Part shown: positions 4,557 to 49,665 of the stretch, piece by piece
Position numbering within the stretch: position 1 is the stretch's first letter
Layout: the number at the start of each line of letters is the position of its first letter
Source of the DNA: an uncultured Flavobacteriales bacterium
GTDB lineage: Bacteria > Bacteroidota > Bacteroidia > Flavobacteriales_D > Crocinitomicaceae
Assembly: GCA_913054135.1 (NCBI GenBank)
Contig: CAJXJK010000001.1
Coordinates: 310,001-374,000 of the forward strand
Direction of reading: 5' to 3'
Length of the DNA: 64,000 bases
Position numbers and translations under genes: made by a program
Notes under the pieces: generated by a model
Database searches by the model: none
What the model saw: the letters and a program-made list of their open reading frames with translations, nothing else
Told to the model about the DNA's origin: nothing

Positions 4557-4673
4557 GATGTAAAAGTCACAATTTTTTATTTATCTGTAATAATTCTTGT
4601 CGAATCTTTCTTGAATGATGCATTCAAAAGAATATTATTTTAAATTTGTCCCAAACTGAATAATACTTAAAGA

Positions 4674-5051
4674 ATGAATGTACCTGCAGATTTAAAATAC
4701 ACTAAAGATCACGAATGGATCAAAGTTGAAGGTGATGTTGCAACTATCGGAATCACAGATTTTGCTCAAAGTGAATTAGGAGATATAGTATATGTAGAAA
4801 TTGAAACTGAGGGAGAAACCTTAGATGCAGAAGAAGTATTTGGATCAATTGAAGCAGTAAAAACAGTTTCTGATTTATTTATGCCGATCGCAGGAGAGGT
4901 GACTCAAATCAACGAAGAAATTGAATCAAACCCTGAGGTAATCAACAGTGACGCATACAATGCTGGATGGCTTATTAAGGTGAAAATTTCTGATGCTTCA
5001 CAAATTGAAGGATTAATGTCAGCAGAGGCATACCAGGAGCTAATTGGCTAA
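4674..5051 (+). CDS. gcvH: Glycine cleavage system H protein
   Basis: KYTKDHEWIKVEGDVATIGITDFAQSELGDIVYVE, lipoyl-lysine region FGSIEAVKTVSDLFMP. Confidence 0.95.
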   Translation: MNVPADLKYTKDHEWIKVEGDVATIGITDFAQSELGDIVYVEIETEGETLDAEEVFGSIEAVKTVSDLFMPIAGEVTQINEEIESNPEVINSDAYNAGWLIKVKISDASQIEGLMSAEAYQELIG

Positions 5052-46636: not shown

Positions 46637-46966
46637 CTAATTCCCCTCAGGTGCAAGTTTAAGAACGATACCATCAATCTCATCCGAGATATGAATTTGA
46701 CATCCTAACCTAGAGTTATCTTCAACAAAAAAGGCCTCATCTAACATGTCTAATTCACTATCAGATTGCTCTGGTAATTCTGTATCAGATTCTAAATAAC
46801 ATTGACATGTTGCACACATTGCCATTCCACCGCATCTCCCTTCAACAGGAAGTTCATAAGAACGACAAACCTCCATCACATTCATGTTCATGTCTGTTGG
46901 AGCTTCTAAATCGTGAGTTACTCCCTCGCGATCAATTATGTGAATGGTTATCATGTTATCTGCCAT
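46637..46966 (-). CDS. 2Fe-2S ferredoxin
   Basis: GRCGGMAMCATCQCYL cluster motif; RLGCQIHISDEIDGIVLKL. Confidence 0.92.
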   Translation of the reverse strand: MADNMITIHIIDREGVTHDLEAPTDMNMNVMEVCRSYELPVEGRCGGMAMCATCQCYLESDTELPEQSDSELDMLDEAFFVEDNSRLGCQIHISDEIDGIVLKLAPEGN

Positions 46967-46996: not shown

Positions 46997-48010
46997 TTAT
47001 TCAAATCCATTCACCCCGTTAACGGTGGTATACTTCAATACGTTTTTCTTGTCAGGATAAATTCTAGCAAATGCTGATTGAACAGCAATTGTTCCTTCAT
47101 GGAACCCACAAAGAATCAACTTCAACTTACCTTCATAAGTATTGACATCACCAATGGCATAAATACCAGGACGATTAGTTGAATAGTCTCTTGTATTTAC
47201 TTTAATCGCGTTCTTCTCAATCTCTAATCCCCAATCACCAATAGGACCAAGAGATGGCTTTAATCCAAATAAAGGAACGAAATGATCAGTTGATTTCTCA
47301 ACTGAAGAACCGTCTTTATGTTTGATTTGAACAGCATCTAAAGAACCGTTTCCGTTTAAGCCAACGACCTCAGCTTCTGTAATCAAATTGATTTTTCCAG
47401 CCTCAGCTAAATCCATCACTTTTTGAACCGAATCAAGATGACCTCTAAAAGATGATCTTCTGTGAACCAAAGAAAGTTCAGAAGCGATATTATTCTCAAC
47501 CAAATAAATAGACCAGTCTAGAGCAGAGTCTCCTCCACCTGCAACAACCACCTTTTTATCTTGGTACATTTCAGGATCTTTGATAATATATTCAACACCA
47601 TTATCCTCAAATTTCTCTAGATTTTCAACTGGTGGTTTTCTTGGTTCAAACACACCTAAACCACCCGCAATCATTACAATTGGAGCTTTGTGTTTTGTGC
47701 CTTTATTCGTGGTAACGATAAACATATCGTCTTCTACCTCATCAATTGTCACCGCAGACTCACCTAAGGTGAACCCAGGTTTAAAAGGGGCAGATTGTTC
47801 CATCAATTTATCTACCAACTCACCAGCATCAACCGTAGGATATCCTGGAATGTCATAGATAGGCTTTTTAGGGTAAATCTCTGTTAATTGACCACCAGCT
47901 TGAGGTAAAGAATCAATTAGGTGACACTTTAGCTTTAACAAACCTGCCTCAAAAACTGTGAAGATCCCAACCGGACCAGCACCAATTATAATTATATCTG
48001 TTTCAATCAT
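46997..48010 (-). CDS. Thioredoxin-reductase-like ferredoxin--NADP reductase
   Basis: IIIGAGPVGIFTVFEAGL, VVVAGGGDSALDWSIYL, PGIYAIGDVNTYEGKLKLILCGFHEG. Confidence 0.88.
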   Translation of the reverse strand: MIETDIIIIGAGPVGIFTVFEAGLLKLKCHLIDSLPQAGGQLTEIYPKKPIYDIPGYPTVDAGELVDKLMEQSAPFKPGFTLGESAVTIDEVEDDMFIVTTNKGTKHKAPIVMIAGGLGVFEPRKPPVENLEKFEDNGVEYIIKDPEMYQDKKVVVAGGGDSALDWSIYLVENNIASELSLVHRRSSFRGHLDSVQKVMDLAEAGKINLITEAEVVGLNGNGSLDAVQIKHKDGSSVEKSTDHFVPLFGLKPSLGPIGDWGLEIEKNAIKVNTRDYSTNRPGIYAIGDVNTYEGKLKLILCGFHEGTIAVQSAFARIYPDKKNVLKYTTVNGVNGFE

Positions 48011-48046: not shown

Positions 48047-49213
48047 TTAATATTTTGGTAGTGATGTATCTATTTTATCAGCCCAATCAAGGATTCCGCC
48101 CTCTAAATTATAGAGATTCGTAAACCCATATTTGTCTTGCAACAACTCTATGACGTCTGCGCTTCGTTTTCCTGACCGGCAATGCACCACAACTTTGTAA
48201 TCAGAACTTATTTCATCAACATGTTCTAGTACATCATTTTGCGGAATGAGTTGACCATTGATATTTACAATATCATATTCATAAGGTTCTCGAACGTCAA
48301 TTAATTGAATGTCCTCAGCACCTTCAAGCCAAGTTTTTAAAGTAGCAACATCAATGCCTTTGACATCTTCTCTCTCGACTTTCTTTTCAATACCTAAGCC
48401 ACAAAACTGCTCGTAATCTATCAATTCAGTAATTGTAGGATTCTTTCCGTTTAATGGATTATCAGGATCTTTCTCAATTTTCAATGTTCTAGTCTCAAAA
48501 TTGAGCGCATCAAACAAAAACAATCTGCCAGAGAGGTTATCGCCGACACCTGTAATCACTTTGATTACTTCATTTGCTTGAAGACTTCCCAATATGCCAG
48601 GCAGCACTCCAATTACTCCACCCTCAGCACATGAGGGCACTAATCCTGGAGGTGGTGGTTCTGGAAATAAATCCCTATAATTTGGACCTGTATTTCCATG
48701 CGCATCTTCGTAATTAAAGACCGTCACTTGCCCTTCAAATCTGAAGATAGATGCATACACATTCGGCACCTTTAACAAAACTGACAAATCATTCACCAAG
48801 TATCTAGTCGGAAAATTATCTGTTCCATCTGCAATCACATCATAGTTAGATGTAATTTCAATGGCGTTTTCAGATGTAAAAGTGGTGTTGTAAGTCTTGA
48901 TTTTTATATGCGGATTCTGCGCTTCAATGCGCTCTTTGGCGGCCTCAACTTTGGGTCTACCAATATCAGCTTGTGTAAATAAAACTTGTCTTTGAAGATT
49001 TGAATCTTCCACCACATCAAAATCTACAATACCAATCGTACCGACTCCGGCAGCTGACAAGTATTGTAGCAAGGGAGCTCCAAGCCCGCCTGTACCAATA
49101 ACTAAAACTCTTGCCGCCTTTAACTTTCTCTGACCCTCAATATTGAATTCAGGAATAATCAAATGACGACTATATCGCTCTAGTTCTTCTTTTGAAAATT
49201 TAATATCGCTCAT
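48047..49213 (-). CDS. MoeB/MoeZ-like sulfur-carrier adenylyltransferase with C-terminal rhodanese domain
   Basis: VLVIGTGGLGAPLLQYLSAAGVGTIGIVDFDVVEDSNLQRQ; rhodanese LIDVREPYEYDI...VVHCRSGKRSADVI. Confidence 0.92.
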   Translation of the reverse strand: MSDIKFSKEELERYSRHLIIPEFNIEGQRKLKAARVLVIGTGGLGAPLLQYLSAAGVGTIGIVDFDVVEDSNLQRQVLFTQADIGRPKVEAAKERIEAQNPHIKIKTYNTTFTSENAIEITSNYDVIADGTDNFPTRYLVNDLSVLLKVPNVYASIFRFEGQVTVFNYEDAHGNTGPNYRDLFPEPPPPGLVPSCAEGGVIGVLPGILGSLQANEVIKVITGVGDNLSGRLFLFDALNFETRTLKIEKDPDNPLNGKNPTITELIDYEQFCGLGIEKKVEREDVKGIDVATLKTWLEGAEDIQLIDVREPYEYDIVNINGQLIPQNDVLEHVDEISSDYKVVVHCRSGKRSADVIELLQDKYGFTNLYNLEGGILDWADKIDTSLPKY

Positions 49214-49214
49214 C

Positions 49215-49496
49215 TCACAAAGTTTTGCCTCCAGCAATTGCCGGAATTATACTTATTACATCTTCATCTTTAACAGGCGTCTCTTCGTTTTCTAATGATT
49301 TGATATCTCTATCGCCTAGATAGATTTTCAAAAACGATTGAAGTGTTCCACACTGTTTAAATAGATGTTTACTTAGATCGGGGTGCAATTCTCCTAATTG
49401 AGTAATCGACTCTCCTACCGATTTACCTGAAGTAATAATCTTCGCCTTGTTATCTGTAAATTTACGTAAAGGCGTTGGAATAATTATAGTTGCCAT
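49215..49496 (-). CDS. MoaD/ThiS-family sulfur carrier protein with C-terminal ...AGGKTL
   Basis: MATIIIPTPLRKFTDNKAKIITSGKSVGESITQLGELHPDL...DEDVISIIPAIAGGKTL; stop is one base before the MoeZ-like start. Confidence 0.85.
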   Translation of the reverse strand: MATIIIPTPLRKFTDNKAKIITSGKSVGESITQLGELHPDLSKHLFKQCGTLQSFLKIYLGDRDIKSLENEETPVKDEDVISIIPAIAGGKTL

Positions 49497-49515
49497 AATG
49501 TCTTTCTTATTTTCC

Positions 49516-49665
49516 GGTTCACTTCGAGGATATCTTTTCGTTTTTGACTTGCTTTTCTGGTAACACCAAGGTGAAAGGGACACCCAATTCTTTAGCTATA
49601 CTAACATAAGCAATTCCTGTACTACCGTTTGAAGCATCTAACAACACTTCAAACACACATAAATA
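49516..49665 (-). pseudogene. Remnant of a PLP-dependent cysteine-synthase-like gene
   Basis: Minus-strand translation ...VFEVLLDASNGSTGIAYVSIAKELGVPFTLVLPEKQVKNEKISSK*, resembling the fold-type II Asn/Ser-loop (SxGNTGIALA) region; no N- or C-terminal remainder. Confidence 0.6.

Follow-up and report, generated by a model that had tools for sequence, protein, structure and literature searches.

Why does a sulfur carrier persist beside its activating enzyme in a genome that has lost both the cysteine synthase and the JAMM peptidase of the same operon? The question is raised by a 64,000-nucleotide stretch of an uncultured Flavobacteriales bacterium (hereafter the window; its genome is referred to as G000), in which a carrier of the MoaD/ThiS fold lies one base from an E1-rhodanese gene and next to a fragment of a cysteine synthase. 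The GG motif of this carrier is followed by three further residues. Carriers that are tailed past the GG and need a JAMM peptidase are known from QbsE/QbsD in Pseudomonas fluorescens and HcyS/HcyD in Wolinella. The tail of the window's carrier is alike, but the end products of those systems differ and the JAMM is absent here. The original prediction took the locus for a thiocarboxylate-dependent cysteine locus that had lost its synthase or been repurposed. On balance, we consider it probable that a thiocarboxylate cysteine operon of the CysO-CysM-Mec type has decayed here, leaving an E1 kept for MoaD and a carrier that is a recent leftover.

A cysteine operon reduced to carrier and E1

The genes of the locus lie on the minus strand in the transcription order cysM remnant, carrier, E1-rhodanese, flavoprotein and 2Fe-2S ferredoxin. 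The carrier (49215..49496) is a CysO-like protein of 93 residues with orthologues in the related genomes G042 and G026. It starts at a conserved ATG, ends in ...SIIPAIAGGKTL* (C-terminus AGGKTL) and scores 42.7 bits against Pfam ThiS (cut-off 22.5); a 122-residue reading frame from an upstream GTG is a mechanical extension only. After a gap of one base follows a 388-residue E1 adenylyltransferase with a C-terminal rhodanese domain (48047..49213; ThiF 264 bits, Rhodanese 50.1 bits), which resembles MoeZ/MoeBR. Both the tail and the one-base spacing had been described in the original prediction and are confirmed by the reading frames and Pfam. Downstream lie a flavoprotein of the thioredoxin-reductase/ferredoxin-NADP-reductase type (46997..48010; Pyr_redox_2, 87 bits) and a 2Fe-2S ferredoxin that is a syntenic neighbour (46637..46966; Fer2, 26.4 bits). 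The flavoprotein adjoins the E1 also in G026 and G004 and, with a fused E1, in G023. A promoter scan returned 11 sites against 11.6 expected.

The nearest solved chains to the carrier are 4n6e_B, a ThiS/MoaD family protein, and 3dwg_C, which is named 9.5 kDa culture filtrate antigen cfp10A and which we take to be CysO; chain A of 3dwg is cysteine synthase B. Both chains stop at the GG that aligns with the GG of the carrier. Mycobacterial CysO ends at its GG, whereas the window's carrier has residues after it and neither a synthase nor a JAMM. The carrier reaches only 15.1 bits against the MoaD equivalog model (cut-off 66.15) and, ending in GGKTL, has no free C-terminal GG, two features that set it apart from MoaD.

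Upstream of the carrier on the same strand, a remnant of a CysM-type cysteine synthase (about 49508..49650) is cut at both ends and frameshifted, leaving two pieces in different frames that cover roughly codons 75-123 of 313. Its Pfam PALP score is only 22 bits (cut-off 35), but the intact cysM of G042 matches it in the 64-kb window with E = 1.4e-12 (tblastn) and at 101 of 124 identical positions (blastn), and it is therefore not a chance match. The fold-type II synthase fragment of the original prediction is thus a frameshifted piece of cysM. Counted along the 31 codons ahead of the frameshift, its differences from G042 number 6 nonsynonymous and 13 synonymous; two of them fall in the SSGNTG stretch, which reads SNGSTG here. 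The original prediction noted no JAMM gene in the window, and three JAMM proteins used as tblastn queries yielded only matches with E >= 1 there. The absence extends to the whole G000 assembly, where a profile search found no Prok-JAB match and the JAMM protein of G042 found nothing at E <= 10. A sulfite reductase of the G042 type likewise has no match in G000.

The genus is represented in the collection by four genomes, namely G000, G042, G026 and G004. The closest relative, G042, has a carrier 98% identical to that of the window, ending in AGGKI, within an operon held on one 5383-base contig (JAUHXX010000262.1, a Bacteroidia MAG) that comprises sulfite reductase, siroheme genes, cysM (PALP, 188 bits), JAMM (Prok-JAB, 67.2 bits), carrier and E1. 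Its upstream trio was read from sequence as sulfite-reductase-like, uroporphyrinogen-methyltransferase-like and siroheme-synthase-like genes. The view that a thiocarboxylate cysteine locus has lost its synthase is well supported, because cysM, JAMM, carrier and E1 are all intact in the operon of a same-genus relative, next to genes for sulfite reductase and siroheme; the comparison further reveals that the JAMM was lost as well. In G042 the carrier also lies between two spacers (L020:4098-4381, 4661-4822) that have repeated words in common, like a small dispersed repeat.

The genus presents a series: the complete operon in G042, carrier and E1 in the window, an ATG-less carrier and E1 in G026, and E1 alone in G004. 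The G026 carrier, which ends in AGGKQ, shares 80% identity with that of the window; its ATG has become ACC, with only a rare ATT start one codon upstream, and no cysM remnant was found in 16 kb around the locus. G004 keeps the E1, flavoprotein and ferredoxin, and its genome contains no match to the carrier. JAMM and the G042-type sulfite reductase are absent from both genomes, and lenient tblastn searches for JAMM and cysM in their neighbourhoods returned nothing above noise. A separate 460-residue ThiF-family match in G026 (L040; contig C121, 84434-85123) has a JAB-like N-terminal part with an HSHP motif and stands outside the cysteine system. In another genus, G023, whose twin among the named loci is labelled Crocinitomicaceae, the order is cysM, JAMM, carrier-E1 and then the same flavoprotein, so the block around the E1 is an old arrangement. 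The G042-type sulfite reductase occurs in three of nine genomes (G042, G008 and G023). Because G019, G033 and G048 have the cysM-JAMM-carrier operon without it, its absence alone does not amount to operon loss, and the losses are not strictly linked.

Operons of this kind are known, and the window holds a degraded member. Operon type 4c of Iyer et al. 2006 combines a ThiS/MoaD-like protein, an E1-rhodanese, a JAB and a cysteine synthase, with one Bacteroidetes/Chlorobi member listed in the part of the paper covered here (PMC1779556). The window keeps two of these four genes: it has a carrier with conserved GG and ThiS/MoaD fold and the E1-rhodanese next door, and lacks an intact operon cysteine synthase and a JAMM/JAB peptidase, both of which are present in G042. 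As far as the covered part of the source describes the mycobacterial CysO-CysM-Mec system with MoeZ (PMC3227635), the carrier is of the same CysO kind and is likewise accompanied by an E1-rhodanese; the relatives of the window add the synthase and the JAMM. Their synthase is of the CysM type, and E. coli CysM structures (2bht) are closer to it than the mycobacterial synthase is. In an ancestor like G042, the carrier's tail would be trimmed by the JAMM to expose the GG; adenylation and sulfur loading of the carrier would fall to the E1-rhodanese, the resulting thiocarboxylate would serve the CysM-type synthase as its source of sulfide, and release of cysteine from the carrier would again be the work of the JAMM. 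A deletion may then have taken most of cysM and all of the JAMM gene and placed the cysM piece beside the carrier.

Tails and fusions across Bacteroidota

In a wider survey, the non-terminal GG proved to be no sign of decay: a tail is the usual state of the family in the best 80 of 151 matching loci. These loci came from named genomes and were found by two N-terminal peptide patterns; the sample is biased to one subfamily, and L059, L060 and L062 duplicate the G042, G023 and G008 stretches. All of the best 80 of 151 are labelled Bacteroidota or groups inside Bacteroidota, and they are flanked by cysM, JAMM and E1 together in 73, by JAMM in 77 and by E1 in 79 cases. In these best 80 of the 151 loci, 60 carriers have residues past the GG, 17 are fused to the E1 and only 3 are GG-terminal. 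Since 60 of the 63 standalone carriers among them are tailed, the idea that the tail is an anomaly of G000 was rejected. One to nine residues follow the GG in 58 of those 63 standalone carriers (again from the best 80 of 151), most often two (39 of the 58). The two outliers are L070, with 34 residues past the GG in a sequence that contains unknown bases, and L136, a peroxiredoxin fusion. A JAMM accompanies 58 of the 60 tailed carriers in the best 80 of 151 loci, the exceptions being L095 and L107; the L072 and L095 loci begin 317 and 136 bases before the carrier, and missing upstream neighbours there mean nothing. The blocked tail is thus an inherited and variable feature that goes with the peptidase.

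The remaining 17 of the best 80 of 151 loci encode in-frame carrier-E1 fusions with an internal GG, all 17 with JAMM and cysM. Fused examples with the JAMM next door include L060, L062, L080, L096, L102, L115 and L120, as well as G019, G033 and G048. The long open frames proved to be such fusions, and a former fusion of the carrier to the synthase was rejected. On an E1 tree of 86 sequences, the fused label requires at least 7 changes between the fused and split states, at least 3 of them forced by well-supported branches; therefore fusion or splitting recurred. A single clade with full support contains the window's E1, those of G042, G026 and G004, and the fused ones of G023 and G008; the position of G004 within it is unsure because of its long branch.

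Two loci of the survey are unusual in other ways. At L107 (6001-6282), about 6 kb of flanking sequence in each direction contains neither cysM nor JAMM nor E1; the tailed carrier there (AGGVKTH) is possibly another orphan. In a Saprospiraceae MAG (L136:6001-6912; contig CALDGQ010000050.1), a carrier domain with its GG at residue 90 is fused in frame to a peroxiredoxin of the AhpC/TSA 1-Cys type, beside cysM, JAMM and E1. This protein resembles a ubiquitin-fusion precursor, and JAMM cleavage could split it.

Fusions of Ub-like domains to the N-terminus of some ThiF proteins, as well as JAB cleavage at the last glycine of the Ub-like domain, were already described or proposed in the part of PMC1779556 covered here; tails, the carrier-E1-rhodanese fusion and a decay series do not appear in that part. 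The present analysis adds the stepwise dismantling in a single genus, an E1 that survives with a likely molybdenum-cofactor role, and the Bacteroidota survey of tails and fusions, points that were not found in the literature searched, which left out most subscription journals. In the surveyed Bacteroidota loci, a blocked tail, or a carrier-E1 fusion with internal GG, is the rule, and JAMM cleavage is therefore a predicted obligatory maturation step.

Molybdenum cofactor and cysteine supply

The window's E1 is the only ThiF-family match in G000, and its reading as a stray relic among several was rejected accordingly. It scores below the curated MoeB/MoeZ equivalog cut-offs except for the subfamily model NF004281 (293.7 against 266), and it combines the ThiF and rhodanese domains of the MoeZ/MoeBR type. 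The original prediction called for a search for molybdopterin genes. G000 has MoaE and MoaA, and its moa cluster includes a 79-residue MoaD ending in FAGG, together with a MoaC-MogA-like fusion and MoeA, both read from sequence. This MoaD scores 57.6 bits against the MoaD model and is thus also under the cut-off of 66.15; its gene overlaps the end of a gene read as TauE-like, resembling sulfite/sulfonate exporters (L016:740-1728). Only the cluster MoaD and the window's carrier reach the ThiS family cut-off in G000, so no ThiS is seen there. MoaD needs an E1 and G000 has a single ThiF-family E1, which would therefore be its partner by exclusion. The E1 has probably been kept because it is the sole E1 for molybdenum-cofactor synthesis, where the moa-pathway MoaD would depend on it for charging. 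The mycobacterial MoeZR is the sulfurating enzyme for MoaD as well as for CysO (PMC3227635, in the part covered here), and an E1 common to the cysteine and molybdenum-cofactor routes, as we infer for the window, would make the two systems alike. The suggestion that the locus was repurposed is accordingly likely for the E1, given its sole status and the moa genes present, and unproven for the carrier.

The cleanest support for this role of the E1 is G004, which has one E1, MoaE, MoaA and a MoCoBD_1 enzyme and no carrier. A search for MoCoBD_1 found such an enzyme in two of the four genomes and none in G000 or G042. No general rule is claimed by which a free-standing E1 occurs only where it must also serve MoaD: G008 fits, with a separate E1 beside MoaD and MoaE, but G023 has a second E1 beside a gene read as ThiH-like, and the four split cases belong to one genus.

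Cysteine itself is likely made by transsulfuration in G000, to judge from its gene content. PALP has seven matches in this genome, six over the cut-off and the seventh being the remnant. The best-scoring model for one of the six (L002) is cystathionine beta-synthase, at 459.9 bits and thus short of the 510.25 cut-off, and the other five, named by eye, are dehydratase-, tryptophan-synthase- or deaminase-like and not cysteine synthases. In nine genomes, operon-bearing ones included, no cysE passes the cut-off, which 8 of 14 controls pass; this absence fits, without proving, a synthase that uses O-phosphoserine.

The fate of the carrier

Without the JAMM, the carrier with its KTL block is most likely unchargeable and would be a recent leftover on its way out. 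Its sequence, nonetheless, gives no sign of decay or relaxed selection, albeit in data with few sites that mostly average over time before the losses. By the Nei-Gojobori method, applied to short genes whose dS is saturated beyond G042, carrier and G042 orthologue differ by 2 nonsynonymous and 21 synonymous changes (dN/dS 0.021, compared with 0.019 for the E1). The remnant exceeds both the carrier (Fisher p = 0.0036) and the E1 (p = 0.008) in nonsynonymous change, the pattern to be expected from a release of cysM alone. Between G026 and five operon-bearing genomes the carrier/E1 dN ratio is 1.91-3.07, and among those five, G048 being left out of the comparison, it is 1.93-2.99. The synonymous divergence of the carrier from G042 is lower than that of the E1 (Fisher p = 0.008), and simple rate comparisons are therefore weakened. 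Retention of the carrier thus reflects either a recent loss of its partners or a use outside the cysteine operon.

A relic is the more likely of these readings, and a carrier still in use without the JAMM is a serious rival, to which we would give perhaps one chance in four. Another peptidase or carboxypeptidase could cut off KTL, after which the E1 would charge the carrier and sulfur would go elsewhere, conceivably to a molybdopterin synthase partner, a tRNA thiolase or a protein target; alternatively, the carrier may act unprocessed, for instance as a non-reactive partner of the common E1. The intact fold and invariant residues, the dN/dS of the carrier and the excess of nonsynonymous change in the remnant all fit such a use. 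Furthermore, the carrier outlived synthase and JAMM under coding constraint in two lineages, G000 and G026, the latter having no trace of cysM or JAMM and no raised carrier/E1 dN ratio; a JAMM-independent role, through maturation by another protease or in the unprocessed state, is accordingly conceivable if rather doubtful. However, the G026 carrier has lost its ATG, the gene is gone from G004, most of the counted divergence predates the losses, and no candidate client gene was identified.

A role for the carrier as a second MoaD that partners MoaE is very improbable: moa genes are present and the E1 would be common to both proteins, but a separate, GG-ending MoaD stands beside the other moa genes and the carrier is far below the MoaD cut-off and nearest to CysO. 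A complete moa pathway using the carrier as its MoaD, which the original prediction had named as a contrary outcome, was thus not found as far as tested. Equally slight is the chance that the loss is an artefact, whether because the assembly (24 contigs, 98.47% complete) lacks a part that holds the JAMM and an intact cysM or because the junction was misassembled. The junction is internal to a contig of 432,824 bases; the remnant has diverged and is frameshifted, and hence is not a broken copy of a live nearby gene; JAMM, cysM partner and sulfite reductase are missing together; and the genus includes two further genomes, one of them a single contig, that are also without them.

The preferred reading, a decayed operon with a retained E1 and a leftover carrier, has points against it as well: the unrelaxed carrier, the lack of a MoCoBD_1 enzyme in G000, the losses of operon and sulfite reductase, which G019, G033 and G048 show to be not strictly linked, and an assembly that is 98.5% complete.

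Taken together, a thiocarboxylate cysteine operon has been dismantled stepwise within one genus, and its E1 survives, probably by means of a second client. The genus thereby offers a natural experiment on whether sulfur carriers can still work once the JAMM peptidase is gone.
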